Part shown: piece by piece, positions 2,549 to 21,269 of the stretch | How the letters are laid out: every line of letters begins with the position of its first letter | How positions within the stretch are numbered: position 1 is the first letter of the stretch | Origin: Methylovulum sp. | GTDB lineage: Bacteria > Pseudomonadota > Gammaproteobacteria > Methylococcales > Methylomonadaceae | Length of the DNA stretch: 45,755 nt | NCBI GenBank assembly: GCA_028712695.1 | Contig: JAQTQZ010000025.1 | Coordinates: forward strand, 1-45,755 | Direction of reading: 5' to 3' | Notes under the pieces: generated by a model | The model's input: the letters and a program-made list of their open reading frames with translations, nothing else | Told to the model about the DNA's origin: nothing | Databases searched by the model: none | Translations under genes and position numbers: made by a program

Positions 2549-4371
2549 CTCCGACCAAAATAGCATTATCTCCTAAGCAACAAAAGATTGTTTATGCCGA
2601 GGAACGCGCCATTTATGTTAAGGCCAGTGCGGGTTCTGGCAAGACGCGCGTATTAACTGAACGGATACGTTATCTTTTAAGTAAAACCAAAAAGAAAATA
2701 TTAGCGTTAACCTTTACCAATAAAGCCGCTGAAGAAATAAAGCAACGCTTAACGGATATTAACGACATTGATAGCCGCTTATTTACAGGTACATTCCACG
2801 GCTTTTGCCAGCATGTGCTTGAGAACCATGGTAGTTTGCTTGGTTTTTCCAAAATGCCACATATTTTTGAAGAAGAAGCTGACAGATTAGAATTGGTTGG
2901 ACAAGCGATTCTTCAAACACCTTCATATAGTGACGAGTACAAAAACATTAATCTCAAAGAACAGCAAAATTTGCGCTATCAGGCACTGAATTTTGTAGCT
3001 AAGGTAAAAAGAAAGCTTATAACCAGTGATGAAGTCTATAAATACAATGATGATGAAAACGTCGTGTTGCTGTATTTAACCTACGAAGATATTTTGCGTT
3101 CTCAAAATGCCATTGACTTTGATGACTTGATAAGACTTACCTACGAATTATTTACAAATTATCCGAACATTGCCGGATTGTATCGGAGAAGTTTCCATGC
3201 CATTTGCGTTGATGAAGCACAGGACTTAAATAACGCACAGTACAAACTACTGCAAGCATTGGCTAATGGGGAATTTAAAAATATCATGATGGTGGGTGAT
3301 CCTAACCAATCCATTTTTCATTTTAATGGTTCATCGCCTGAATTCATGAATCAAGCATTTGTAAAAGATTTTGATGCCGATGTGGTTGAGTTAAAGGAAA
3401 ACTATCGTTCTTCAAAAGCGGTGTTGTCGGCAGCTAAAAAAATACGGCCTGAAAACGAAAATATTTCCGATACCGTTAAAACAGGCATTTTTGAAATCCA
3501 TGCGCTAGAAGATGAGCAAGCTGAAGCACAATGGATCACTGATAAAATCCAAGAATGGTTAGCAATCAAGCATCACGACGATATAGAAGGCGAAATTTGC
3601 CCAGAAAAAATCGCCGTGTTGGCGCGAAATAAATACGTTTTTAACGCATTGGAACAAAAATTCAAAGACACTGGGATTTCGTATTATTTCAAAATGACAC
3701 CTGGTGCCATTAAATTTGAATCCGAACTCATGAAGCTGTTTGATTTGGCTTTTAGGATAAAAATTAATCCGCAAGATGTGTTACATAAAGAGCGTTTGTT
3801 AAAAATGCTTAATTGTGAAAACAGCAATCTGGAAAACCTTGTAGCATTTACCAAGTCCTTAAACCCAAGCCAAGAACAGCAAGTCCTCAATATAGTGAAT
3901 GGATTGGCTGATGATGGAAGCAACCTTAAAGAATCGTTTATACAGTTCAAAAACGGTTTAAATATCATTGATGAGAACGAACGTAGTATGGTAATTAATG
4001 ACATTGACGAGTTACTTAATCATTGGCTGGTTTATGCCAAAAGCACTGACAATAAATCATTACACTATTTTAAAAATGCAATGGCATTAGGACAAACCCA
4101 TCCATTAACGCAACATCAGGGAATCACTTTAAGCACTGTCCATACGATGAAAGGTCAGGAATTTGATATTGTTTTTCTAATGGGAATGGATGATGAAACC
4201 TTTCCAGATTATCGTGCCGTCAAAAATAACGGAATTCAATTAACTCAAGAACATAATAATTTATATGTTGCTTTCACTAGGGCAAAACGGTTTCTTTATG
4301 TAACTTGGCCTGAAAAAAGACAGATGCCTTGGGGGGTGAGATATAGAAAAATATCTCGTTTCTTGAATTGA
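2545..4371 (+). CDS. gajB: Gabija-type UvrD-like superfamily 1 helicase (GajB-like)
   Basis: SF1 DNA helicase of 608 aa. Visible motifs are Walker A ASAGSGKT (27-34), motif Ia ALTFTNKAAEEI (54-65), GTFHGFC (82-88), DEAQD (223-227), motif III VGDPNQSIF, motif IV ENYRS, STVHTMKGQEFD near the C-terminus and the final NLYVAFTRAKRF. In Gabija, GajB senses DNA ends or ssDNA and activates or assists GajA. It is about 100 residues longer than the well-known Gabija helicases of roughly 500 aa, so it is either a long variant or a UvrD/PcrA-type partner of a related OLD system. It starts inside the stop of gajA. The 3' end abuts a truncated toxin gene, marking the edge of the acquired module. Confidence 0.83.
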   Translation: MTPTKIALSPKQQKIVYAEERAIYVKASAGSGKTRVLTERIRYLLSKTKKKILALTFTNKAAEEIKQRLTDINDIDSRLFTGTFHGFCQHVLENHGSLLGFSKMPHIFEEEADRLELVGQAILQTPSYSDEYKNINLKEQQNLRYQALNFVAKVKRKLITSDEVYKYNDDENVVLLYLTYEDILRSQNAIDFDDLIRLTYELFTNYPNIAGLYRRSFHAICVDEAQDLNNAQYKLLQALANGEFKNIMMVGDPNQSIFHFNGSSPEFMNQAFVKDFDADVVELKENYRSSKAVLSAAKKIRPENENISDTVKTGIFEIHALEDEQAEAQWITDKIQEWLAIKHHDDIEGEICPEKIAVLARNKYVFNALEQKFKDTGISYYFKMTPGAIKFESELMKLFDLAFRIKINPQDVLHKERLLKMLNCENSNLENLVAFTKSLNPSQEQQVLNIVNGLADDGSNLKESFIQFKNGLNIIDENERSMVINDIDELLNHWLVYAKSTDNKSLHYFKNAMALGQTHPLTQHQGITLSTVHTMKGQEFDIVFLMGMDDETFPDYRAVKNNGIQLTQEHNNLYVAFTRAKRFLYVTWPEKRQMPWGVRYRKISRFLN

Positions 4372-4534
4372 TACGTAATAAGACGCCGACCAATTTTTCA
4401 TAAGGTGGCGGGTTTTGGTACGGGTCGATTTTTAGGATTTCCAATAACAGTAAAGCTTTGTCCTTTAACCCTGCTGTTGCTAGTTTTTTGGCATCTTTCA
4501 ATGCTTGTTTGGCGTAGATAATTTCCCAGCTCAC
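4277..4534 (-). pseudogene. Truncated YoeB/RelE-family toxin
   Basis: The frame opens with GTG overlapping the antitoxin stop (GTGA) and encodes a Txe/YoeB-type mRNA-interferase start: VSWEIIYAKQALKDAKKL, then NPPPYEKLVG at residues 41-50. Family similarity stops at about 4385, only 13 bp from the stop of gajB. From there the frame reads antisense through the end of gajB to a stop at 4277. The missing C-terminal half should carry SRRIN..HRLVY and the terminal His/Tyr, which include catalytic residues of YoeB-type toxins. The chimera is 85 aa, about normal length, but should be inactive. I infer that arrival of the gajAB module replaced the toxin's 3' end. Confidence 0.75.
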
Positions 4535-6386: not shown

Positions 6387-8621
6387 TTATTTCCAGATAC
6401 TGACAATATTGGTGAAATCATCTGTCCATGGTTTCATATCAAAATACAGCGGCATTTTCTGCCAGTTGCCAAGGCTGCTCACGCTTAACGGTTGCAGCGT
6501 TTCCGGCTTGTTTGCCATCACCACCCAATCCGTCGCGACGATCAGCGGCATAGCTTGTGCCGGTTCAAATTCTTCGATAAGGGCGGCAAGTTTTAGTTGC
6601 TCCGCATGTATCGACAAAACTTTTTTCAACATCAAATGACGGTTGGTGATATGAAAAGCCAGTATGCCATCCGGTTTAAGCTTTTTGAAATACAACTCGA
6701 TGGCTTCTTTAGTCAACAGGTGGGTCGGCACTGAGTCTGAGCTGAACGCATCCATAACCAATAAATCAAATTTGTGGTCCGCCTCTTTTGCCAATGACAA
6801 ACGCGCATCGCCAATGCGTATCGTCGCGCTCAGCCCACACTGATTAAGATACGAGAAATAAAGCGGGTTGCTGGCAATATCGACCACTAACGGATCAATC
6901 TCATACAACGTCCATTTTTGCCCAGGCTTGATATAACAAGTCAATGCGCCCGCGCCCAAACCAACGATACCGACTTCCCAGTTTTGGTTGCGGCTGTCAT
7001 ATTCCTTAAACAATTGTCCCATCGGCCCAGGGCGGCTGTAATACGTCAAGGGAATCCGGCTTAAGTTGGCTGGCAGCCGTTGCGCCCCATGTTTAGTCGT
7101 ACCGTGGAAAAGTTCATGATAGGTTTCGGGCTTGTTCTGCTCATTATTCAGCACACTTTCCCGCACGGCCAACACGCCAAAAAACGTGCGTCCTTGATAT
7201 AAGGTATGGGAAGACAGGCTATGCAAACCCTGCGCCAGGAAGATAATCGACCCTGTCAAAAAAGCAAGGGCAACGGGGCGCTTTCTAAACACCAAAGTCA
7301 ACAACGTCAAGCCCATTAAACTGATGACAATCCAATCAAAATACTGGAGCAAACCTTTGACAGTGGCATACAAGACCAAACCGATGCCCATTAACAGAAC
7401 AGGCACCATGATTTGCCATAACCAAGCTTTTTTGCCGTCAGGCTGCAAACCTGGACGTAGCCATAAAGCGGCCACAATCATCAGCGGATATTCATAAATG
7501 CCGTTGAAAATGAACGGCGCGACAAAGGTATTGAACATCCCTCCCAACATGCCGGCAAACGACATGATCAGGTAAAAACGGGTCAGATAACGGGTATGCG
7601 GACGCAACTTCGCCAGCTCGCCGTGACAAACCATGACGGCGAAAAAAAACGCCAACACATGCAGCACCAAATACGCCCAATAAGGCAAATCGGCAGGATT
7701 GATAAAGGCGTAGGCAACAAATGGCACTAAAAAAATCGGCTGCAACGTGACCATCACCGGATGTATCTTGTCATTCCATTTTGAAAATACAATCACAAAT
7801 GACAACAGGTAGACCGTCAACGGGATAATCCACAACAACGGCACAGAGGCAATATCGGTGCTGATGAAGTTAGTCAGCCCCAGCAACAGGCTGGATGGCA
7901 CAAAAGCCAGCGCCAACCAATGCAATTGTATGCGTAGGGAAAGCCGTTCTGGTTCCAGATTATCTGCCTGCGCGGTAGCGACCGCTTTCTTACTTTGCCA
8001 CAAAACAAATGCGCAAGCCGCTATCAGCAGGCTTAAGAAAATATAGCCGAACCCCCAGTAAATTTTCTGTTCGGCAAGGCCAATAGTGGGTTCCAATAAA
8101 AATGGGTAGCTCAGCAACGCCATCAGACTGCCGGTATTGCTGGCCGCATAAAGATAATAAGGGTCATGGCTGGTATGGTGGCCGACCTGCGAAAACCATT
8201 TTTGGATCAACGGCGCAGTGGTTGACACGACGAAAAAAGGCAGGCCGATAGCCAGGAATAATGTCCACAGCAACCAAAAAGTGGGGTTGCTGTCGGTAGG
8301 TGGCGTCGTATTTTCAGGCAATGCCAGCGGCAATGCCAAAAAACTGACCAAGATGACCGCCGCGTGCAGCTGGATTTGCCGGTGCGGGTTAAGGCGCGTG
8401 GAAACCGTATGTGCGTAAAGGTAACCAAGAAACAAAATGCTTTGGTAAAACACCATGCAGGTGTTCCATACCGCCGGCGACCCGCCCAACAAGGGCAATA
8501 AAATCTTCCCAAACAAGGGCTGCAATATAAACATCAGCGACGCACTGATGAATAAGGTTCCGGCAAACAGAAAAATCAGGGAGAGACGGCGGTCGTTTTT
8601 TAGTTCGTGGGAATGGCTCAT
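6387..8621 (-). CDS. Fused membrane/spermidine synthase-like protein
   Basis: A 744-aa protein with an N-terminal membrane part of roughly twelve hydrophobic segments (about residues 15-480) and a C-terminal Rossmann-fold domain like spermidine synthase. The second domain has VGIVGLGAGALTCY (the SAM/dcSAM-binding glycine loop), LYEIDPLVVDIA, IGDARLSL and LLVMDAFSSDSVPTHLLT, in the order expected for a SpeE-like aminopropyltransferase. Such MFS-spermidine synthase fusions are common in bacteria and their substrate is generally unproven, so polyamine synthesis is a family inference. The start ATG at 8621 is chosen because the first hydrophobic segment begins soon after, at LSLIFLFAGTLF. It seems to be transcribed alone. 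Confidence 0.85.
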   Translation of the reverse strand: MSHSHELKNDRRLSLIFLFAGTLFISASLMFILQPLFGKILLPLLGGSPAVWNTCMVFYQSILFLGYLYAHTVSTRLNPHRQIQLHAAVILVSFLALPLALPENTTPPTDSNPTFWLLWTLFLAIGLPFFVVSTTAPLIQKWFSQVGHHTSHDPYYLYAASNTGSLMALLSYPFLLEPTIGLAEQKIYWGFGYIFLSLLIAACAFVLWQSKKAVATAQADNLEPERLSLRIQLHWLALAFVPSSLLLGLTNFISTDIASVPLLWIIPLTVYLLSFVIVFSKWNDKIHPVMVTLQPIFLVPFVAYAFINPADLPYWAYLVLHVLAFFFAVMVCHGELAKLRPHTRYLTRFYLIMSFAGMLGGMFNTFVAPFIFNGIYEYPLMIVAALWLRPGLQPDGKKAWLWQIMVPVLLMGIGLVLYATVKGLLQYFDWIVISLMGLTLLTLVFRKRPVALAFLTGSIIFLAQGLHSLSSHTLYQGRTFFGVLAVRESVLNNEQNKPETYHELFHGTTKHGAQRLPANLSRIPLTYYSRPGPMGQLFKEYDSRNQNWEVGIVGLGAGALTCYIKPGQKWTLYEIDPLVVDIASNPLYFSYLNQCGLSATIRIGDARLSLAKEADHKFDLLVMDAFSSDSVPTHLLTKEAIELYFKKLKPDGILAFHITNRHLMLKKVLSIHAEQLKLAALIEEFEPAQAMPLIVATDWVVMANKPETLQPLSVSSLGNWQKMPLYFDMKPWTDDFTNIVSIWK

Positions 8622-8834
8622 TATTAATTTTTATAGTTAATGTATGGCGATATTTTAGCCGCTAATGATAAAACATTTGCCGGTTTATCGGGTACTCTTA
8701 ATGGATAACAACGGTAGATATGGCGTATTCAAGCGCCTTGTCCAAATTACGCCACAAATGGATAACCCAACAAACGGCCACGCTTTAACAAAACCATTTA
8801 GCAAAATGGAACTATATTTAAGTGCTCAAAAGTT

Positions 8835-8966: not shown

Positions 8967-9569
8967 ATGATAGTGAAACACGCGCTTACAGCCTTAAAAC
9001 TTGTCCTGCTGCTATTCGGCAACCAATCAGTAATGGCAGCCAACTTTAGTTTTATAGGCAATTTCACCTACGACAGCGACATACAATTTTTTGACTTTTC
9101 CATCGCGGCCGATTCACCCTCCGTCCTTATCCACACCTTTTCGCTGAATGGCGGTGTCAACGCGGATGGCACACCTATAGCGGGCGGTGGTTTTGATCCC
9201 TATCTTGCCCTATTCAACAAAGCCGATGGCGCTTGGGTTTATTCTACTGAAACGAAGAACGATGCGGATGAAGCGGTTATTACCGCGAATCCTTTATTAG
9301 CCGGCAATTACATTTTGGCATTGACACAGTTCAACAATATCAGGGCTGGCGATTTTTTGTCAGATGGCTTTGCTTACGCGCTAGGATTGGCTACTTTTGG
9401 CATTACACCTTTTACTGCCTATAGCGGCGGTGGTAGCGGCCATTGGGCGGTTGACATCAACAATGTCAATGCAGCCAGCGCTTCGTCCAGTGTCCCGATA
9501 CCTGAAACGTTGACATTGACACTTATCGGTCTGATCGGTTTGGGCGTAATCAGACACCGCAAAGCCTAG
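8967..9569 (+). CDS. Secreted DVUA0089-like protein with PEP-CTERM-type tail
   Basis: A 200-aa protein with a hydrophobic N-terminal signal (about 1-25, ending near SVMA). A beta-rich middle reads NFSFIGNFTYDSDIQFFDFSI...FDPYLALFN, which resembles DVUA0089/PPC-like extracellular domains. The C-terminal anchor is VPIPETLTLTLIGLIGLGVIRHRKA: a Pro-Glu motif, a hydrophobic helix and a basic end. This matches the three-part PEP-CTERM sorting signal, but the motif is IPET rather than PEP. Exosortase would process it during export of surface or exopolysaccharide-associated proteins; no exosortase gene is in the window. The stop is only 47 bp before the first collagen-like paralogue, so co-transcription is possible. 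Confidence 0.65.
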   Translation: MIVKHALTALKLVLLLFGNQSVMAANFSFIGNFTYDSDIQFFDFSIAADSPSVLIHTFSLNGGVNADGTPIAGGGFDPYLALFNKADGAWVYSTETKNDADEAVITANPLLAGNYILALTQFNNIRAGDFLSDGFAYALGLATFGITPFTAYSGGGSGHWAVDINNVNAASASSSVPIPETLTLTLIGLIGLGVIRHRKA

Positions 9570-9616: not shown

Positions 9617-10906
9617 ATGAATTTCCCCCTAAATGCACTCCGTGCCACCATCCTGTTGACCTGCCTTGGCCCGTTGGCGGCCCAGGCCGTAATTGCCCCC
9701 CTCACCGCCGACACCAACGTGGCCTTGCCGAATGCGGGCGCCGCCCAAGCCATCAACATCCGGCCCGCCACCAAAGCGTTGCTGGCTTTTGATTTGTCAA
9801 CCTTGCCCGGCGGTATCACGTCCAGCGACATTGCCAAAGCGACGCTGGTATTTTATGTAAAAACCGTGCCGGTCAACGGCAAGATCCAAGCCAGCCCCGT
9901 TACCCAAACCTGGAACGAAACCACCGTCACCACCGCCCCCAGCCAAGGCGCGGCAACGGCAAGCAGCGCCATCATCAGCCGAGGCAACACTTATTTTGCC
10001 CTCGATGTCACTAATCTGGTGCTGGACTGGGTTGATATCCCCGCCAGCAACAAAGGCCTCGTGCTTGAGCCGGATAGCTCGACACCGGCAGCGTCAATCA
10101 CGCTAGACAGCAAAGAAGCCATCCAAACTAGCCATCCCGCCTATATCGAAATCGCCTTGAAAGGCCCGGCTGGTGCGAAAGGTGACACGGGCACGACAGG
10201 CTCACAAGGCCCGGCCGGTGCAGCGGGTGCGAAAGGTGACACCGGAGCGAAAGGTGATACGGGAGCAACCGGTGCAACGGGTTCAAAAGGTGACACTGGC
10301 ACCACAGGCACCTTTCAAGCCGGTACTGTAGCCGGTCAAATGCTTTATTGGGATGGTAGTGCATGGATTACCATAGCGCCGGGAACGCATAAACAATCAC
10401 TAAGCTATTGCAACGGCGTACCCACATGGGGGGATTGCCCAATATTAGTGGGTGATGACTACCTAGGCGGTAAAGTCGCGTATATTTTACAGGCTGGCGA
10501 TCCAGGTTACGATGCCCATGTCCAGCATGGTTTAATAGCGGCCCCCAGTGATCAAAGTACTCATATCGGGTGGGGTTGTGATGGAACCGCCATTTCAGGA
10601 GCCCATGGCACCGCCATAGGTACCGGCCAACAGAACACCTCAGCTATCAAAGCGGGTTGTTTAGAACCAACGGCAGCAAGATTTGCTACCATAAATGGTT
10701 ATAACGACTGGTATTTACCCAGCAAAGACGAGTTAAAGCAATTGTATGTCAATAGAACCGCTATCGGGGGGGTTGCCGATGACTTGTACTGGAGTTCGTC
10801 CGAGGTCATCAACAACCTCGCGTGGTGCCAGAACTTTGGTAGCGGTCTTCAGAGCAACTGCGTTAAGTTCTTCCCGATAGCAGTCCGTGCGGTGAGGGCT
10901 TTTTAG
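9617..10906 (+). CDS. DNRLRE/collagen-like/DUF1566 surface protein, paralogue 1 (putative DGR target)
   Basis: A 429-aa secreted protein. It has a signal peptide (1-24, cleavage after AAQA), a DNRLRE domain (about 28-181, beginning [20 protein letters not shown]), 16 collagen-like Gly-X-Y triplets (about 183-231, rich in GAK/GDT/GAT), a short linker with [11 protein letters not shown], and a DUF1566/Lcl domain (about 270-429) with the [13 protein letters not shown] and LYWSSSE motifs and the terminal VRAVRAF. The Lcl domain is C-type-lectin-like and is a known type of DGR target. A strong AAGGA lies 7 bp before the ATG. The final 126 bp is hypervariable relative to the two paralogues. A fibrous stalk presenting a diversified binding tip is the likely job; the ligand is unknown. 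Confidence 0.8.
   Translation: MNFPLNALRATILLTCLGPLAAQAVIAPLTADTNVALPNAGAAQAINIRPATKALLAFDLSTLPGGITSSDIAKATLVFYVKTVPVNGKIQASPVTQTWNETTVTTAPSQGAATASSAIISRGNTYFALDVTNLVLDWVDIPASNKGLVLEPDSSTPAASITLDSKEAIQTSHPAYIEIALKGPAGAKGDTGTTGSQGPAGAAGAKGDTGAKGDTGATGATGSKGDTGTTGTFQAGTVAGQMLYWDGSAWITIAPGTHKQSLSYCNGVPTWGDCPILVGDDYLGGKVAYILQAGDPGYDAHVQHGLIAAPSDQSTHIGWGCDGTAISGAHGTAIGTGQQNTSAIKAGCLEPTAARFATINGYNDWYLPSKDELKQLYVNRTAIGGVADDLYWSSSEVINNLAWCQNFGSGLQSNCVKFFPIAVRAVRAF
10778..10903 (+). other. Putative DGR variable region 1 (VR1)
   Basis: Last 42 sense codons of paralogue 1. Runs of codons ending in C (five between GAG and GCG-TGG, then more after TGG) differ from VR2 while the codons between them match. 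The 3' 24 bp including the stop (10883-10906, starting GTCCGTGCGGTGAGGG) equals that of VR2 apart from the last base, and would be the initiation-of-mutagenic-homing segment. At most altered sites the pattern is what adenine-specific mutagenesis of AAC template codons would give. No template repeat is in the window. Confidence 0.72.
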
Positions 10907-10934
10907 CTTTAACCTTGGTGGGTAGGTTTTGACT

Positions 10935-10986
10935 TGGAGTGCGTACATCTTGACCGCATAAGGCGGACAGCGAGACCTGCGCTCCA
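10935..10986 (+). other. Conserved hairpin after VR1
   Basis: T10935-C10942 pairs with G10979-A10986 (8 bp including one T-G pair). An inner CCGC (10954-10957)/GCGG (10963-10966) hairpin lies inside. Equivalent structures follow VR2 and VR3 at the same distance, about 30 bp after the stop, with wobble-preserving changes. DGR targets typically carry such a hairpin or cruciform just past the variable region. Confidence 0.65.
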
Positions 10987-11120
10987 GCTAAGGGCCAACC
11001 CTTTAATTTTTTAACAAAACCACGTTAGCGGTCAAATTTTTGGCATAAAAAAAACCGATTTTTTTACGCTGGCTAAAATTTACTAAAATTTCATGACCCT
11101 AAAATCTCCAAGGAACCGCC

Positions 11121-12440
11121 ATGAATTTCCCTTTAAAACCCCTCTGTGCCGTTATCCTGTTAGCCAGCCTTAGTCCATTGGCGGCCCAGGCTGTGGTTGT
11201 CCCCCTCACTGCCGACACCAACGTGGCCTTGCCGAATGCGGGCGCTGCCCAAGCCATCAACATCCGGCCCGCCACCAAAGCGTTACTGGCTTTTGATTTG
11301 TCAACCTTGCCTGGCGGCATCACGTCCAGCGACATTGCCAAAGCAACCCTGGTGTTTTATGTAAAAAAAGTGCCGACCAGCGGCAAGCTCCAAGCCAGCC
11401 CCGTTACCCAAGCCTGGAGCGAGGCCACCGTCACCACCGCCCCCAGCCAAGGCGCGGCAGCGGCAAGCAGCGCCATCATCAGCCAAGGCAACTCTTATTT
11501 TGCCCTCGATGTCACCAATCTGGTGTCCGACTGGGTTGACAATCCCGCCAACAACAACGGCCTTGTGCTTGAACCGGATAGCTCGACACCGACAACGTCA
11601 ATCACGCTGGACAGCAAAGAAGCCAAGCAAACCAGCCATCCCGCCTTTATAGAAATCGCATTGAAAGGCCCGGCTGGTTCAAAAGGTGACACGGGCGCAA
11701 CCGGCGCACAAGGCCCGGCAGGGGTGAAAGGTGATGCCGGGGCAACAGGCGCACAAGGCCCGGTAGGTACAGCAGGTGCGAAAGGTGACCCAGGTGTAAA
11801 AGGTGATACCGGGGCAACAGGCGCTACAGGCACCTTTCAAGCCGGTACGCAAACCGGTCAAATGCTTTATTGGGATGGTAGTGCATGGATTCCAGTAGCA
11901 CCGGGAATAAGTAAACAAACACTAAGCTATTGCAAAGGCATACCCATATGGGGGGATTGCAAATTATCGGTCGGTGATAGCGACCTAGGCGGTAAAGTGG
12001 CATATATTCTACAAGCGGGCGACCTAGGTTACGATGCCAATGTGCAGCATGGTTTAATAGCGGCCCCCAATGATCAAAGCACATCGGCGACATGGGGGTG
12101 TTATGGATCCGCCATTGCAGGGGCCGATGGCATAGCCATAGGCTCAGGCAACCAAGACACCTCAGATATAATAACGGGCTGCACAGCAGCAGGGATAGCG
12201 GCAAAAATTTGTGCCGACCTAGTATTGAATGGTTATAGCGACTGGTATTTACCCAGTAAAGACGAGTTAAATAAATTGTATGTAAATAGAACCGCTATCG
12301 GCGGTTTTGCCGGTGTCTTGTACTGGAGTTCGTCTGAGCACGACGGCAGCGGCGCGTGGGGCCAGGGTTTCGGTAGCGGCGTTCAAAACTTCGTCAGCAA
12401 GGGCAGCACGCAATCAGTCCGTGCGGTGAGGGCTTTTTAA
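11121..12440 (+). CDS. DNRLRE/collagen-like/DUF1566 surface protein, paralogue 2 (putative DGR target)
   Basis: A 439-aa paralogue of the preceding gene with the same order: signal peptide ending AAQA, DNRLRE domain (to about 181), 18 collagen triplets (about 183-237, including [19 protein letters not shown]), [11 protein letters not shown] linker and DUF1566/Lcl domain. It has the same AAGGA ribosome site. From the end of its collagen stretch to about 12275 it is almost identical at the DNA level to paralogue 3, then abruptly diverges in the last 126 bp. Its C-terminal end, and the DNA of its last 24 bp, match paralogue 1. The 214-bp spacer before it repeats the spacer structure of the other copies, so the array arose by tandem duplication. 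Confidence 0.8.
12312..12437 (+). other. Putative DGR variable region 2 (VR2)
   Basis: Last 42 sense codons of paralogue 2. Compared with VR1, 19 of 42 codons encode a different residue, and in 17 of these 19 the third base is unchanged, the reverse of ordinary divergence. Constant codons (GAG, GCG-TGG, CAG, AAG, and GTC-CGT-GCG-GTG-AGG) punctuate the variable ones. The homing-type 3' segment is 12417-12440. Confidence 0.73.
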
Positions 12441-12660: not shown

Positions 12661-13860
12661 ATGAATTTCCAAAACGCACTTCGCGCCACCATCCTGTTAG
12701 CCAGCCTTAGCCCGTTGGCGACCCAGGCCGTAATTGTCCCCCTCACCGCCGACACCAACGTGGCCTTGCCGAATGTGGGCGCCGCCCAAGCCATCAACAT
12801 CCGCCCTGCCGCCAAAGCGTTGCTGGCTTTTGATTTGTCAACCTTGCCCGATGGCATCACGTCCAGCGACATTGCCAAAGCGACCCTGGTGTTTTATGTA
12901 AAAAACGTGCCGGTCGGCGGCAAGATCCAAACTAGCCCCGTTACCCAAGCCTGGAGCGAAACCACCGTCACCACTTCCCCCAGCCAAGGCGCAACAGCGG
13001 CAAGCAGTGCCATCATCAGCCGCGGCAACTCTTATTTTGCCCTCGATGTCACCAATCTGGTGTCCGACTGGGTTGACAATCCCGCCAACAACAACGGCCT
13101 TGTGCTTGAACCGGATAGTTCGACACCGACAACGTCAATCACGCTGGACAGCAAAGAAGCCAAGCAAACCAGCCATCCCGCCTTTATAGAAATCGCCTTA
13201 AAAGGCCCGGCGGGGGCTGCTGGTGCGAAAGGTGACACGGGCGCCACAGGCACCTTTCAAGCCGGTACGCAAACCGGTCAAATGCTTTATTGGGATGGTA
13301 GTGCATGGATTCCAGTAGCACCGGGAATAAGTAAACAAACACTAAGCTATTGCAAAGGCATACCCATATGGGGGGATTGCAAATTATCGGTCGGTGATAG
13401 CGACCTAGGCGGTAAAGTGGCATATATTCTACAAGCGGGCGACCTAGGTTACGATGCCAATGTGCAGCATGGTTTAATAGCGGCCCCCAATGATCAAAGC
13501 ACATCGGCGACATGGGGGTGTTATGGATCCGCCATTGCAGGGGCCGATGGCATAGCCATAGGCTCAGGTAACCAAGACACCTCAGATATAATAACGGGCT
13601 GTACAACAGCAGGGATAGCGGCAAAAATTTGTGCCGACCTAGTATTGAATGGTTATAGCGACTGGTATTTACCCAGTAAAGACGAGTTAAATAAATTGTT
13701 CGTGAACAGAACCACTATTGGGAGTTTTTCATCCGCCCTCTACTGGAGCGCGTCTGAGTACAATGACAACTACGCTTGGATCCAGTACTTCGGCAGTGGC
13801 GACCAGTTCGGCGGCCTTAAGAACACAGGATTCTATGTGCATGCTATAAGGGCTTTTTAA
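12661..13860 (+). CDS. DNRLRE/collagen-like/DUF1566 surface protein, paralogue 3 (putative DGR target)
   Basis: A 399-aa paralogue with a signal peptide ending ATQA, a DNRLRE domain and only five collagen triplets (about 181-197, [16 protein letters not shown]), so a much shorter stalk than copies 1 and 2. The linker and most of the DUF1566 domain are nearly identical in DNA to copy 2. The C-terminal 126 bp differs strongly and ends VHAIRAF instead of VRAVRAF. That includes changes in the conserved homing segment, so this copy may no longer accept new variants or may follow another template. It has the same AAGGA ribosome site and ATG context. Confidence 0.8.
   Translation: MNFQNALRATILLASLSPLATQAVIVPLTADTNVALPNVGAAQAINIRPAAKALLAFDLSTLPDGITSSDIAKATLVFYVKNVPVGGKIQTSPVTQAWSETTVTTSPSQGATAASSAIISRGNSYFALDVTNLVSDWVDNPANNNGLVLEPDSSTPTTSITLDSKEAKQTSHPAFIEIALKGPAGAAGAKGDTGATGTFQAGTQTGQMLYWDGSAWIPVAPGISKQTLSYCKGIPIWGDCKLSVGDSDLGGKVAYILQAGDLGYDANVQHGLIAAPNDQSTSATWGCYGSAIAGADGIAIGSGNQDTSDIITGCTTAGIAAKICADLVLNGYSDWYLPSKDELNKLFVNRTTIGSFSSALYWSASEYNDNYAWIQYFGSGDQFGGLKNTGFYVHAIRAF
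13732..13857 (+). other. Putative DGR variable region 3 (VR3), divergent
   Basis: Same length (126 bp) and same constant landmarks (TAC-TGG, GAG, TGG, CAG, GGC, AAG, AGG-GCT-TTT) as VR1 and VR2, with C- or T-ending codons at the same variable places. Unlike the others it also has changes in the framework codons and in the 3' segment (GTGCATGCTATAAGG instead of GTCCGTGCGGTGAGG). Confidence 0.6.
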
Positions 13861-14027: not shown

Positions 14028-14099
14028 TGGCTGAAATTTACTGAAACTTCATTTACTCTGACCCTAAAATTTCGTGCCCCTAAATGCCAAGGAACCACC

Positions 14100-14281
14100 A
14101 TAAATTTCCTCCTAAAACCAACTCCGCGCCATTATTCTGTTAGCCAGCCTTAGCCCGTTGGCACCCCAGGCCGTGGTTGCTCCCCCTCACCGCCGACACC
14201 AACGTGGCCTTGCCGAATGTGGGCGCCGCCCAAACTGTCGACATCCGCCCTGCCGCCAAAGCTTGGAGCGAAACCACCACC
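14100..14281 (+). pseudogene. Truncated fourth copy of the DNRLRE/collagen-like gene
   Basis: The sequence after AAGGAACCACC repeats the start of the three paralogues, but the initiator ATG is ATA and there are frameshifts in the signal-peptide region. The part encoding [15 protein letters not shown] is still legible in DNA. An internal deletion then joins the AAKA of the early DNRLRE domain to the AWSETT segment, after which homology ends at the edge of a transposase remnant. The middle and 3' end, including any variable region, are gone. Confidence 0.75.
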
Positions 14282-15110
14282 CCCCACGGCTTTCTCATAA
14301 AAACCTTACTTGCCTGAGCATGGATCAGGGTAGGAACAGACTCGGCGAAATTCTCTATGGCAGCCTGAAAGTTTTTCGGTGAGGTTTTTCTGATCAGTTC
14401 AATGGCAAGGCCTCGTAACAACGCCATGATTTGCGCTTGGTGGCCCGCTTTTGTTTTGATGTGGCCTTCATTAAAAGTGACATCACGTATCCAATTATTG
14501 GATTCCACACCCCAGTGACAACGGATAGCCTTGGCCAATTCATCGGCAAGAGGGCCGATGCCCCCAGAGCTGAATTGCTGACATAATAAGCCGTTTCTAA
14601 ACTGGTTTTTTGTTTAGCAATCCCGGATGTTTCACGCCCCACAACGATCAGAACCGACAAACCGCTGTTTTTCCATCGTGGACCTAAGGTTAACGATGCC
14701 AAGGGGAACACCTCAACCCAGCGAGGGTGACACGGCCATGTGCTTTTTCATGACCCGTTGTTTCGGCAAGCGGCAGGGACTGGAGACGCAACAGTTTGCA
14801 TTGCTTCAGGAAGGCCGCTTGATTTTCTTTGGCCTGCGTCAAATAAATGCCATCGGCCTGATGAATCTGGGCCGTAGTCATCAGATTAAAGTGATGGGCG
14901 CCCAGCGACACTTTGTGTTTTTCCAAACCGTTGTCCTTTAACAGCCCACGCACTACCGGACAACACTGGACTTGTCGCCACATTGTCTGGCTTGTGCCAC
15001 GACATCACGCGAATTATGGCCAACCGCCAGAACCCAACCCTTGTTTTGCGATTAATTGGCGTGATGGAAAACTACGCTTGCCCAGCCACTTAACCTGTAT
15101 CGGATGCTTT
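14282..15110 (-). mobile_element. Decayed ISAs1-like transposase
   Basis: Several minus-strand frames, joined by frameshifts, read as one DDE transposase. They contain IYLTQAKENQAAFLKQC followed by TTGHEKAHGRVT (about 14740-14860), then SGIAKQKTSLETAYYVSN (about 14570-14640), then AKAIRCHWGVESNNW and IRDVTFNEGHIKTKAGHQ (about 14430-14540), ending FAESVPTLIHAQ near 14300. HWGVES..WIRDVTFNE resembles the C-terminal glutamate region of ISAs1/H-repeat transposases. No intact frame spans it and terminal inverted repeats were not found; the upstream edge near 15110 is approximate. Confidence 0.65.
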
Positions 15111-15289
15111 TTTATTATTGTCCGTAAAATCCAGCAACCCAGCTAACGTTGAAATGCCGGATAAAAGTAGGCCGAAATACCCGATAAAACAACCTTGACC
15201 GTGTACTGGAGAAACCGCTAATGCAGGCATTGCCTGCTTTAAGATTATAATACGCCAATCTCTCAATTATCCCGCTACAGGCCTTCTCT

Positions 15290-15904
15290 ATGAAAACAAG
15301 CATGAAAATTTTAACCTGTCTGATGCTGATGCTTTTGGCTGCATGTTCAAGCCAGAACGTCAAGCAGCAAGAGGTGCTGACAACAAAACCCGCCATAGCC
15401 AATAAACCACCCTCCGTGGCAAGCCAAAATCCACCGATGATGATGGCCCAAAATGGCAAGACCTTAAATCTAGTTAGAATTATGGATGGGGCGGCATGTA
15501 AAAATGAGCTTGAAGGCGCGAAAGGCATCTTTCTTGTGTACGCCGACCCCAATGATATAGAACGGATTAAACAGGAAAAAGGCGCAAAAGTTTTTACTGA
15601 ATTTGAAGCCAAAATCCAAATCTTCTCAGAACACGCGTTGCAGCACGCCGTTAATACAATGAATCTGGCCAAAGACCCTTTTGCGCTCGGCGATGATGTC
15701 ACACAGCAGAAACTGGCCCAACAATTAACAGATAACTTTCGTGTTGCCGTCATCGATTCCCTCGATACCTTTAAAAAAGAAACGGCGTTGACTATAGACG
15801 TTGCGGCATTTCCGCCCTCGTTTGTGTTTTATCAAACAGGCTGTCAAGCAACCTTGCCGGAATCTGATTCTTCAGAAGACGACAACTACCTAGAGGCTAA
15901 TTGA
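15290..15904 (+). CDS. Predicted lipoprotein of unknown function
   Basis: A 204-aa protein with a lipoprotein signal: a basic start, MKILTCLMLMLLAACSS, and a lipobox LAAC placing the lipidated cysteine near residue 19. The following residue is Ser, which predicts outer-membrane sorting under the +2 rule. The mature part has a Pro/Lys/Ala-rich spacer (about 20-55) and then an alpha/beta region with CKNELEGAKGIFLVYADPNDIERIKQ and two further features, a late Cys (QTGCQAT) and an acidic C-terminal tail. No family was recognised. ATG 15290 is preferred over the in-frame ATG at 15302, which lacks a ribosome site. A TATAAT-like box lies about 45 bp upstream. Confidence 0.75.
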   Translation: MKTSMKILTCLMLMLLAACSSQNVKQQEVLTTKPAIANKPPSVASQNPPMMMAQNGKTLNLVRIMDGAACKNELEGAKGIFLVYADPNDIERIKQEKGAKVFTEFEAKIQIFSEHALQHAVNTMNLAKDPFALGDDVTQQKLAQQLTDNFRVAVIDSLDTFKKETALTIDVAAFPPSFVFYQTGCQATLPESDSSEDDNYLEAN

Positions 15905-18590: not shown

Positions 18591-21269
18591 ATGGCGATTT
18601 TAAAAGGCACCAACGGTGACAACTCCATCACCGGAACAGCAGGTAACGACATTATTAGCCCACTATTAGGCAAAGACGTTGTTGACGGTGGCGGTGGCAT
18701 CGATTTGCTTATCATCAATTATGGCTCAATTGGCCGCAATATAACCTTAAGCGGCAACAGGTTCGGTGACGGCATTGCCAACTGGGTTGATTTTAACAAC
18801 ATCGAGCGGTTCGACATAACGACGGGAAGCGGCTCTGACTATCTTCGTGGTGGCAGTTTAAACGATGTCCTAAAAAGCGGCGCAGGCGACGACACCTTAG
18901 ACGGTGCTGGCGGCAAAGACATCATTAACGGCGGGGCGGGGACGGACACTTGGATAGAAAATTATTCCGGTGTTTCCAGCCCCGTCACTATCACATTATC
19001 CAACACGCTGGTGAACGGCAACACAACCGCTGTCGTCAAGTTAGGCGCAGCAACGGGCTCCACCGTGCTTAATGTCGAAGCCTTATCGGTACAGACGGGA
19101 AGCAAGAACGACACGATTTCGGTGGGCCCGTATGCCAACAATGACGACATCCGTACCGGTGCCGGAGATGATTCGATCAACGTGGGCACTGGCGGCCGTG
19201 ACTATGTCCATGGCGGGGATGGCATCGATTTAGGCATTTTTAATTGGTCCGCATCCGTCACGGACATCACGGTAGACCCTTATTACGATGACTACTCGGA
19301 TGGCGAGAACCGCTATGTCAATTTTGATGCGGTTGAACGTTTCAATCTGACCGGCGGCTCAGGGAACGATTCTTTGGCCGGTGACATTTACAACGACACT
19401 TTAATCGGTGGCGCAGGAAATGACACGCTCAACAGTGCCCGTGGCTCCGATTGGATCGATGGCGGCGCAGGTGTCGATTTGTGGCAAGCCGACTACAGCA
19501 CCGCCACCAACAATATTAATGTGCAACTTTCTGCCGCCACGGATGTTAATGCCATTAAAAGCGGAATCACCGGCGGAGTGGTTAAAAACATAGAACAATT
19601 GAATTTTAGTTCCGGAAGTGGGAATGATGTCATATCCACCGCGCCGTTCAAATACAATGACAGCATCTGGAGCAACGGGGGCAATGACACGATCAATGTC
19701 GGCATAGGCGGGCGCGACTACGTTCATGGCGGGGATGGCGTCGATTTAGGCATTTTCAATTGGTCAACATCAACCACCGACATCACCGTTGACCCTTATT
19801 ATGACGACTACTCCGATGACCAAGGCCGCTATGTCAATTTTGATGCCGTTGAACGTTTCAATCTGACCGGCGGTTCAGGAAACGACCACTTGGCGGGTGA
19901 CATTTACAACGACATTTTAACCGGCGGCGCAGGAAATGATGTCCTTGAGAGCGGCCGTGGCAGCGACATCATCAATGGTGGCACTGGGGTTGATTTGTGG
20001 CAAGCGGATTACAGCACCTCCACTAATGCAATTAACGTACAGCTTTCCACCACATTGAATGCTAATGGCATTAAAGGCGGCATCGCGGGCGGCGTGGTTA
20101 AAAACGTAGAGCACCTCCATTTGTCATCAGGTAGTGGTAATGATGTCATTTCAACCACCCCCTTTGCATACGACGACAATATATGGAGCAATGCTGGTGA
20201 TGACAGCATCAATGTCGGCAAAGGTGGCCGGGACTATGTTAACGGTGGCGCTGGCGTCGATTTAGGCATTTTTGACTGGTCAGCATCAACCACCGCCATC
20301 ACTGTTGACCCGTATTATGACGATTATTCGGATGGTGAAGGCCGCTATGTCAATTTTGATGCCGTTGAACGTTTTAACCTGACTGGCGGCTCTGGCAACG
20401 ACTTTCTTGCGGGCGATAGTTACAGCGATAGGCTTATCGGTGGTTTAGGACGGGACACGCTTAATTCCGTCAGCGGTGCTGATTACGTTGACGGCGGTGG
20501 CAATGTGGACTTATGGAAAGCCGATTACAGCGCTTCCACTAACGACATTAATGTGCAATTGTCAGCCGCGTTAGGGGTTAATGCAATCAAAGGCGGCATC
20601 GCGGGCGGTGTGGCTAAAAATGTCGAGCGTTTGGATATTTCTACCGGCACAGGTGACGACATCATATCCACCGCTGCATTTGCTTACAATGACAACATTT
20701 GGAGCAACGATGGTGATGACACCATCAATGTCGGCAAAGGCGGCCGGGATTATGCAAACGGTGGCGCCGGTGTCGATTTAGGCATTTTTGACTGGTCAGC
20801 ATCAACCACGAGCATCACTGTTGATCCCTACTATGACGATTACTCGGATGGTGCAGGGGGTCGCTATGTCAATTTTGATTCCATCGAGCGCTTTAACCTC
20901 ACCGGCGGGTCGGGTAATGACTATTTGGCTGGCGACATTTATAACGATACCTTATCCGGCGGCAACGGTTATGACACATTGGAAGGCTTTGCCGGCAACG
21001 ATACGCTCATAGGTGGTGGCAACGGTGATATTTTTGTTTTCGGAAGCGGCAACGGCCAAGACATCATCCGAGATTTTAACCAAGGTTTAGGCCTAGAAGA
21101 TGTGGTTCGCTTCAATTACGTGCCCTTCGCCGACATGAGCCTTACCACCCTCAAAAGCAACATGCAACAAACAGGTAGCGATGTCGTGCTGACTTTATCG
21201 GATACCGACTCGATCACCTTGATAGGCACCACAATAGCTGGCTTTACAGCAGACGATTTTGTTTGGTAA
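18591..21269 (+). CDS. Large RTX-type calcium-binding repeat protein
   Basis: An 892-aa acidic Gly/Asp/Asn-rich protein without a Sec signal. Hemolysin-type nonapeptides such as GGAGNDTLN, GGSGNDYL and LSGGNGYDTLEGFAGNDTL recur throughout and would fold into a Ca-loaded beta-roll on leaving the cell. Between residues about 201 and 790 there are tandem 172-residue units, each with a GGRDYVHGG/VDLGIFNWS/VDPYYDDYSDG/RYVNFDAVERFNLTGGSGND succession. The C-terminus (FVFGSGNGQDIIRDFNQG...ADDFVW) looks like the type I secretion end of RTX proteins. No type I transporter genes are in the window, so an exporter elsewhere is presumed. The ribosome site AGAGGA sits about 8 bp before the ATG. Function is unknown; surface layer or adhesion is plausible. 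Confidence 0.82.
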   Translation: MAILKGTNGDNSITGTAGNDIISPLLGKDVVDGGGGIDLLIINYGSIGRNITLSGNRFGDGIANWVDFNNIERFDITTGSGSDYLRGGSLNDVLKSGAGDDTLDGAGGKDIINGGAGTDTWIENYSGVSSPVTITLSNTLVNGNTTAVVKLGAATGSTVLNVEALSVQTGSKNDTISVGPYANNDDIRTGAGDDSINVGTGGRDYVHGGDGIDLGIFNWSASVTDITVDPYYDDYSDGENRYVNFDAVERFNLTGGSGNDSLAGDIYNDTLIGGAGNDTLNSARGSDWIDGGAGVDLWQADYSTATNNINVQLSAATDVNAIKSGITGGVVKNIEQLNFSSGSGNDVISTAPFKYNDSIWSNGGNDTINVGIGGRDYVHGGDGVDLGIFNWSTSTTDITVDPYYDDYSDDQGRYVNFDAVERFNLTGGSGNDHLAGDIYNDILTGGAGNDVLESGRGSDIINGGTGVDLWQADYSTSTNAINVQLSTTLNANGIKGGIAGGVVKNVEHLHLSSGSGNDVISTTPFAYDDNIWSNAGDDSINVGKGGRDYVNGGAGVDLGIFDWSASTTAITVDPYYDDYSDGEGRYVNFDAVERFNLTGGSGNDFLAGDSYSDRLIGGLGRDTLNSVSGADYVDGGGNVDLWKADYSASTNDINVQLSAALGVNAIKGGIAGGVAKNVERLDISTGTGDDIISTAAFAYNDNIWSNDGDDTINVGKGGRDYANGGAGVDLGIFDWSASTTSITVDPYYDDYSDGAGGRYVNFDSIERFNLTGGSGNDYLAGDIYNDTLSGGNGYDTLEGFAGNDTLIGGGNGDIFVFGSGNGQDIIRDFNQGLGLEDVVRFNYVPFADMSLTTLKSNMQQTGSDVVLTLSDTDSITLIGTTIAGFTADDFVW
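19191..21000 (+). repeat. Tandem 516-bp repeat units within the RTX gene
   Basis: The GGRDY landmark begins at 19191, 19707, 20223 and 20739, exactly 516 bp (172 codons) apart. There are three full units and a fourth that breaks off into the C-terminal domain. The fourth carries one extra codon in the YSDGAGGRYVNF segment. The DNA of the units is similar but not identical, and silent differences show that the duplication is not brand new. Confidence 0.9.

Follow-up and report, generated by a model that had tools for sequence, protein, structure and literature searches.

Probable relict variable repeats of a diversity-generating retroelement in tandem Lcl_C genes of a Methylovulum draft genome

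The closest described systems to the locus considered here are diversity-generating retroelements (DGRs) whose target proteins carry an Lcl_C (DUF1566) domain, and DUF1566 has been reported as the commonest Pfam domain among DGR targets (PMC6642488). Incomplete systems are also on record. For example, DGR fragments and fossil variable repeats (VRs) without a reverse transcriptase (RT) are reported from the DUSEL4 Nanoarchaeota, where the authors proposed loss or remote diversification (PMC4372165), and a metagenome survey graded DGRs as active or inactive from single-nucleotide variants (PMC8144416). The locus described here is a row of tandem Lcl_C genes in a 45,755-nt stretch of DNA from Methylovulum sp. 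(contig JAQTQZ010000025.1; the whole stretch is called the window). The 3' ends of its first two genes, paralogues 1 and 2 (p1 and p2), are read as relict VRs that were inherited after loss of the DGR cassette, with a probability of roughly 0.78. The window is one contig (C24) of a 3.79-Mb draft genome (G000) in 110 contigs with 99.98% completeness, and 20 Methylovulum genomes were searched, this one included.

Codon and base pattern of the p1 and p2 tails

A first-pass annotation of the window placed a DGR-type signature in the last 42 sense codons of p1 and p2, at 10778-10903 and 12312-12437. These coordinates are exact for the open reading frames (ORFs) at 9617-10906 and 11121-12440. The tandem genes and their repeats are as follows.

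9617..10906, + strand: p1, an ORF with Pfam matches to CBM96, collagen-like repeats and a C-terminal Lcl_C (DUF1566) domain; probable orphan DGR target
10787..10903, + strand: VR of p1, a core of 39 codons (TAC TGG ... GCT TTT)
11121..12440, + strand: p2, an ORF with Pfam matches and the architecture of p1; probable orphan DGR target
12321..12437, + strand: VR of p2, placed by its mismatch pattern against the template of a congener (G007)
12661..13860, + strand: paralogue 3 (p3), an ORF with Pfam matches to CBM96 and Lcl_C and a shortened collagen-like stretch that has no Pfam collagen match
13741..13857, + strand: VR of p3, whose backbone is a different one (GCT TGG, GGC AGT GGC, TTC TAT)

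Lcl_C, a C-type-lectin-like family, stands above the Pfam gathering cut-off in all three proteins, with the VR at the 3' end of the gene, and the N terminus of p1 resembles a signal peptide as judged by eye. A fourth intact paralogue (p4) lies on contig C38 of the same genome. Three further Lcl_C matches in this genome, two on C80 and one on C40, have tails that by eye are unlike those of p1-p4.

Between the p1 and p2 tails 19 codons differ non-synonymously and 17 of these keep their third base, exactly as first counted. Codon positions 1 and 2 are both changed in 11 of the 19, and there are four synonymous differences besides. In the other 384 aligned codons, which lie upstream, the third base is kept in 46 of 83 non-synonymous differences (Fisher p = 0.004 versus the tail). 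Counted by base, differences at positions 1 and 2 versus position 3 stand at 30:6 in the tail and 96:95 upstream (p = 1.5e-4). The clean third-base pattern is limited to two of the four intact paralogues; p3 and p4 are noisier, and in the five pairs that involve either of them the pattern is weaker, with the third base kept in 12-14 of 21-26 non-synonymous codons among the last 42. Among the intervening codons described as constant, one CAG is CAA in p2. The final segment, GTC CGT GCG GTG AGG, was also described as constant and is common to p1, p2 and the G007 template; p3 has GTG CAT GCT ATA AGG in its place. This conserved 3' end is what we take to be the initiation of mutagenic homology (IMH) region of the VR.

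Template repeats were found in two congeners, G007 and G013. They are rich in AAC codons and stand in the same register as the p1 and p2 tails, and the non-A backbone of the G007 template, which reads GAG AAC GAC AAC AAC AAC GCG TGG AAC CAG AAT TTC GGT AGC GGC ..., is nearly equal to that of p1 and p2. The template predicted from the tails, five AAC codons followed by GCG TGG AAC CAG, is thus nearly matched in G007 (AAC GAC AAC AAC AAC GCG TGG AAC CAG, beside an Avd gene), and none was found in the genome for which it was predicted.

The base test compares the codons from GAG to AGG, which hold 37 template A and 59 non-A bases, and a stratified version shuffles within codon positions (20,000 shuffles, floor 5e-5). 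Against the G007 template, p1 is mismatched at 19/37 A and 6/59 non-A bases (p = 1.2e-5; stratified 2.5e-4), and p2 at 20/37 A and 4/59 non-A bases (Fisher p = 2.9e-7; stratified 5e-5). At codon position 2 alone, 11/19 A versus 0/13 non-A bases are mismatched in each of the two genes. This concentration of mismatches on template adenines indicates that p1 and p2 derive from a G007-type template; the off-adenine outcome that would speak against a DGR is not seen in these two genes. The p3 tail fits the G013 template (22/37 A, 15/59 non-A) better than that of G007. Its backbone suggests that p3 was probably derived from another template type, common to gene 2 of Methylovulum miyakonense and to G010.

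DGR parts in congeners and in this genome

A genus-wide RVT_1 search, together with a search by the tail, led to contig C207 of G013, where a whole DGR cassette is present.

369-1547: target gene, with the architecture of p1 and p2 (Pfam)
1710-2051: Avd gene, with NCBIfam, Pfam and PHROG matches
2193-2342: template repeat, a repeat of the tail outside the target gene
3226-4467: RT gene, with an RVT_1 match (E 4e-22)

The G013 VR is mismatched to its own template at 16/37 A bases and 1/59 non-A bases. The Avd protein matches Pfam bAvd at 81 bits (cut-off 40), NCBIfam DivGenRetAVD at E 2.8e-18 (66 bits, below its 80-bit cut-off) and PHROG 3206, 'Avd protein of DGR'. The template repeat is read as non-coding and is overlapped by mechanical ORFs. 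For the RT, the best PHROG is PHROG 1423, 'Reverse transcriptase', and no DGR-specific RT model was named by NCBIfam or among the 25 of 62 PADLOC families listed; it is filed as a DGR RT because of the cassette around it. Between template and RT, at 2570-3143, two small ORFs (77 and 118 residues) resemble a toxin-antitoxin pair by eye. G013 also holds two further DGR-like loci with several repeat copies, on C153 and C103. The RTs at these loci are more distant, as is one in G017 (C37), and each has a divergent Avd match.

In G007, contig C352 carries a target, an Avd gene and a template (Avd and template at 3414-4066), with the template outside the target gene and beside Avd. An RT gene is absent from the remaining 2.1 kb of the contig, and there is no RVT_1 match in the G007 genome. 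Similarity to parts of the G013 RT is confined to two short stretches (C447:883-1056, E 1.8e-9; C352:2059-2199, E 0.002). A clean template and Avd are thus kept on this contig, apparently without a polymerase. The proposal that a DGR made the p1 and p2 pattern is supported by these loci: the adenine-directed mismatches are to congener templates that adjoin Avd and, in G013, also an RT.

In the draft genome that holds the window, none of the five RVT_1 matches is a DGR-type RT. Those on C107, C70 and C72 (the first of two) are group II intron RTs at 378, 373 and 407 bits (NCBIfam cut-off 300), and the second C72 copy is by eye an identical 467-residue protein. The C69 match belongs to a St85/type II-A retron (C69 58772-62377), in which an STM3845-family / NDT effector gene lies directly upstream of the 307-residue RT. 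The G013 DGR RT, taken as positive control, is recovered by the RVT_1 search. That G013 RT used as a query gives two weak matches in this genome, both within group II intron RTs. For Avd, an accessory that is usual in DGRs and not universal, this genome has no match at E<=10 by sequence or by profile. Searched with the p1 tail, it yields only four VRs, p1 included, and no template repeat; the G013 template recovers nothing and the G007 template only p1 and p2. The predicted template core AACGCGTGGAACCAG, allowing up to two mismatches, has 5 matches in this genome versus 16 in the control.

Across the genus, the tail is found at E<=0.001 in 16 of the 20 genomes, this one among them. Two of the 20, G013 and G007, have an Avd of this lineage at full length. 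G019, G012, G016 and G014 hold short Avd fragments (E<=1.1e-6), of which the G016 one lies at the end of its contig, and G002 gives a weak match (E 0.17). In G012, moreover, the target tail is preceded at about 0.8 kb by a piece of RT that contains two stops. Among the 237 genomes searched in the family, G063 (84% identity) and G030 (81%) have RTs closely related to that of G013, and G186 has a broken one.

The template motif is also found in viral contigs. Of the 28 viral loci with the template core GCGTGGAACCAGAAYTTC, the G013 RT matches 22 and its Avd 20, and 5 are matched by neither (E<=1e-4). This co-occurrence supports the motif as a DGR template. In one viral contig, IMGVR_UViG_2582580686_000001, the RT and Avd are 61% and 78% identical to their G013 counterparts and a template-like match is present; the contig is possibly a phage carrier of this DGR lineage. 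Farther afield, the metagenome-assembled genome named Desulfobacteraceae RAAP-1 has a contig whose target tail (8001-8769) shares 62% identity with p2. An Avd match of 39 residues (74% identity) accompanies it, and the 16.6 kb compared gave none to the G013 RT. The contig is possibly mis-binned, with a decayed or partial cassette. A scan of genome contigs with the aligned tails returned 14 loci; besides the M. miyakonense and RAAP-1 contigs, these entered only the comparison of tail patterns and, for some of them, a further alignment.

Conservation of p1 and competing explanations

The genome of M. miyakonense (G001; one contig, 99% complete) allows p1 to be followed across a species boundary. 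Gene order is as in the window, a PEP-CTERM-like gene and then two tandem paralogues, with 89% identity over 2.8 kb. The synteny anchor in the window is as follows.

8967..9569, + strand: PEP-CTERM-like protein gene (named by eye)

Its protein is 90% identical to that of M. miyakonense, whose gene lies directly upstream of the p1 orthologue. Where p1 and the orthologue have both departed from a template A, they carry the same base at 18/20 sites, versus 3/13 for p1 and p2 (p = 1.6e-4). The differences between p1 and its orthologue have no adenine bias (5/40 A versus 6/77 non-A, p = 0.30), and those between p1 and p2 have a strong one (25/40 versus 9/77, p = 2e-8). The between-species comparison speaks against active VR diversification of p1, which by this sequence evidence seems to have stopped changing long ago, so that at least one gene seems frozen. 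M. miyakonense itself yields only VRs to the template queries, no Avd match better than E 0.73 and a single RVT_1 match, a group II intron RT (394 bits). The implication of present-day hypermutation in the window's genome is not supported: template and DGR RT were not found in the draft, and the mutated state of p1 is common to another species' orthologue.

How the tails could have arisen can be put as a sequence of steps. In an ancestor, an AAC-rich template RNA would have been reverse-transcribed by a DGR RT with Avd, errors arising at its adenines, and the 3' end of these secreted Lcl_C genes would have been exchanged for the resulting mutated cDNA. The first two bases of AAC and AAT codons would thereby have been randomised, with the scaffold bases left intact. 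The cassette of Avd, template and RT would then have been lost from the lineage, as it seems to have been lost or to be decaying in several congeners. The tails would remain as a small frozen repertoire, p1 by vertical inheritance and p2 and p3 by duplication or recombination. That the absence of a cassette reflects real loss rather than an assembly gap, and that change ran in the direction of loss, is the likely reading of these comparisons.

Several observations weigh against this account. The templates used in the base test come from other species and are cognate by homology only. Neither p3 (18/37 A, 18/59 non-A; Fisher p = 0.06, stratified 0.015) nor p4 (24/37 A, 16/59 non-A; p = 2.8e-4, stratified 0.0024) fits any of the templates compared cleanly, the counts being those against the G007 template. 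The G007 genome has 7% contamination, and among named RT families the G013 RT scores highest with group II intron RTs, at 104 bits, far below the cut-off of 300. The surroundings of the window's genes yielded no remnant of a DGR, and with a draft in 110 contigs a cassette may sit in an assembly gap. Finally, p1 and its orthologue have diverged further in the tail, at 11/117 positions, than over the preceding 300 nt, where identity is 0.98 (counted as 6/300; p = 0.001), and the tail differences include three multi-base codon changes. This excess means that some change followed speciation and that the p1 tail is not wholly static.

In the alternative that survives best, a DGR made the tails, and homologous recombination (gene conversion) now passes them as cassettes between the tandem paralogues and relatives, so that diversity would be a shuffled frozen repertoire. 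It is compatible with the relict reading as a later stage. The case for it comes from p2 and p3, whose bodies are near-identical (417/420 over the seven 60-nt blocks before the divergent 3' end) and whose last three blocks agree at 119/180; the spacers downstream of the two genes repeat one another. The p3 VR has a backbone like those of M. miyakonense gene 2 and G010 and unlike that of p2. However, the same picture would result if a duplicate gene had its tail rewritten by a DGR that used a second template, and none of the tails compared is identical to p3 as a donor. Both histories would fit p2 and p3, and the recombination account is possible but doubtful. It is decidedly unlikely that the lineage, having kept its tails as a fixed repertoire after DGR loss, now obtains surface-protein variety by exchanging entire tails among its tandem genes, a shift from mutation-driven to cassette-shuffling diversity.

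A working DGR could also be present and have been missed, in an assembly gap or through occasional supply in trans by a plasmid or phage, with the tails still diversifying. The fragmented draft, the same template motif in viral DGRs (with RT matches at 22/28 loci and Avd matches at 20/28) and the several VR codons at which p1 and its orthologue still differ would all be expected under this alternative. Against it, DGR RT, Avd and template were not found at 99.98% completeness, the p1 state is conserved between species with differences that lack an A bias, and the one-contig M. miyakonense genome likewise gave no template, no Avd match better than E 0.73 and no DGR RT. This makes a missed DGR quite improbable. 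That positive selection at a binding surface drove ordinary divergence, without any DGR, is scarcely tenable: the tail lies in the Lcl_C domain and surface proteins can diverge fast, but selection alone leaves unexplained both the non-A conservation and the change at half of the adenines of a foreign template-like sequence, as well as the codon-position-2 contrast in p1 and p2 (0/13 non-A versus 11/19 A).

Downstream of p3 lies one more member of the family.

14091..14277 (approximate), + strand: pseudogene, the truncated start of a further paralogue, with leader homology and no ATG; repeat families D9 and D10

This pseudogene matches the starts of the other paralogues, the spacer before it belongs to repeat family D14, and it runs into unrelated sequence that by eye resembles an insertion-sequence remnant. 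At 14091-15100 the truncated paralogue abuts an apparent decayed insertion sequence. A minus-strand ORF at 14140-14538 resembles a transposase end in its motif; it has no Pfam support. The window's spacers and 14100-15290, compared with 29 loci, gave paralogue repeats and short matches, and nothing recognisable as Avd or template. As for the protein, the Lcl_C domain would bind a ligand at the cell surface. A structure prediction for the p2 Lcl_C region from 11 sequences has a mean predicted local distance difference test score of 47.2, too poor a model for judging the fold, and a PDB sequence search gave a single relative, HbP1 (8q4e, E 2e-20). Elsewhere in the window are a transfer-messenger RNA gene (186-563; tag peptide ANDENYSMALAA) and a gene for a large RTX (hemolysin-type calcium-binding) repeat protein (18591-21269) with internal repeats of 516 nt.

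Relation to described systems

The locus has consequences for how DGRs are recognised. The signature of a DGR is readable from its targets alone, and once its mutator is gone a target can pass through speciation almost unchanged. VR-like patterns are accordingly no proof of present activity. The genus offers a graded series, from the whole cassette in G013, through template and Avd in G007 and fragments in G012, G014, G016 and G019, to none found in the window's genome and in M. miyakonense. Such a series lets the fate of hypervariable binding proteins after diversification stops be asked. The term DGR is absent among the literature matches listed for methanotrophs, where such a paper may still exist.

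In variable surface gene families driven by gene conversion, the tandem paralogues are nearly identical in the body and diverge at the 3' end. The bodies and 3' ends of p2 and p3 have this form. The difference is that the tails here bear the template-adenine signature, which conversion alone does not make.

DGRs with Lcl_C/DUF1566 targets are closer. The target domain, the C-terminal VR, the AAC-rich template and the adenine-directed differences are the same, and a whole cassette of this kind is present in the congener G013. The window's genome differs in that only targets were found, with no RT, Avd or template.

The DUSEL4 Nanoarchaeota are the nearest precedent for this state. As reported there, target genes and VRs with a history of DGR mutagenesis occur at sites without an RT, and those genomes held other whole DGRs, whereas none was found in the draft here (PMC4372165). 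Unlike that case as it is described, the frozen state here is supported by an orthologue in another species. With RT-less VR fossils already published (PMC4372165), the Methylovulum locus is a well-resolved relict of a known system and not a new system.

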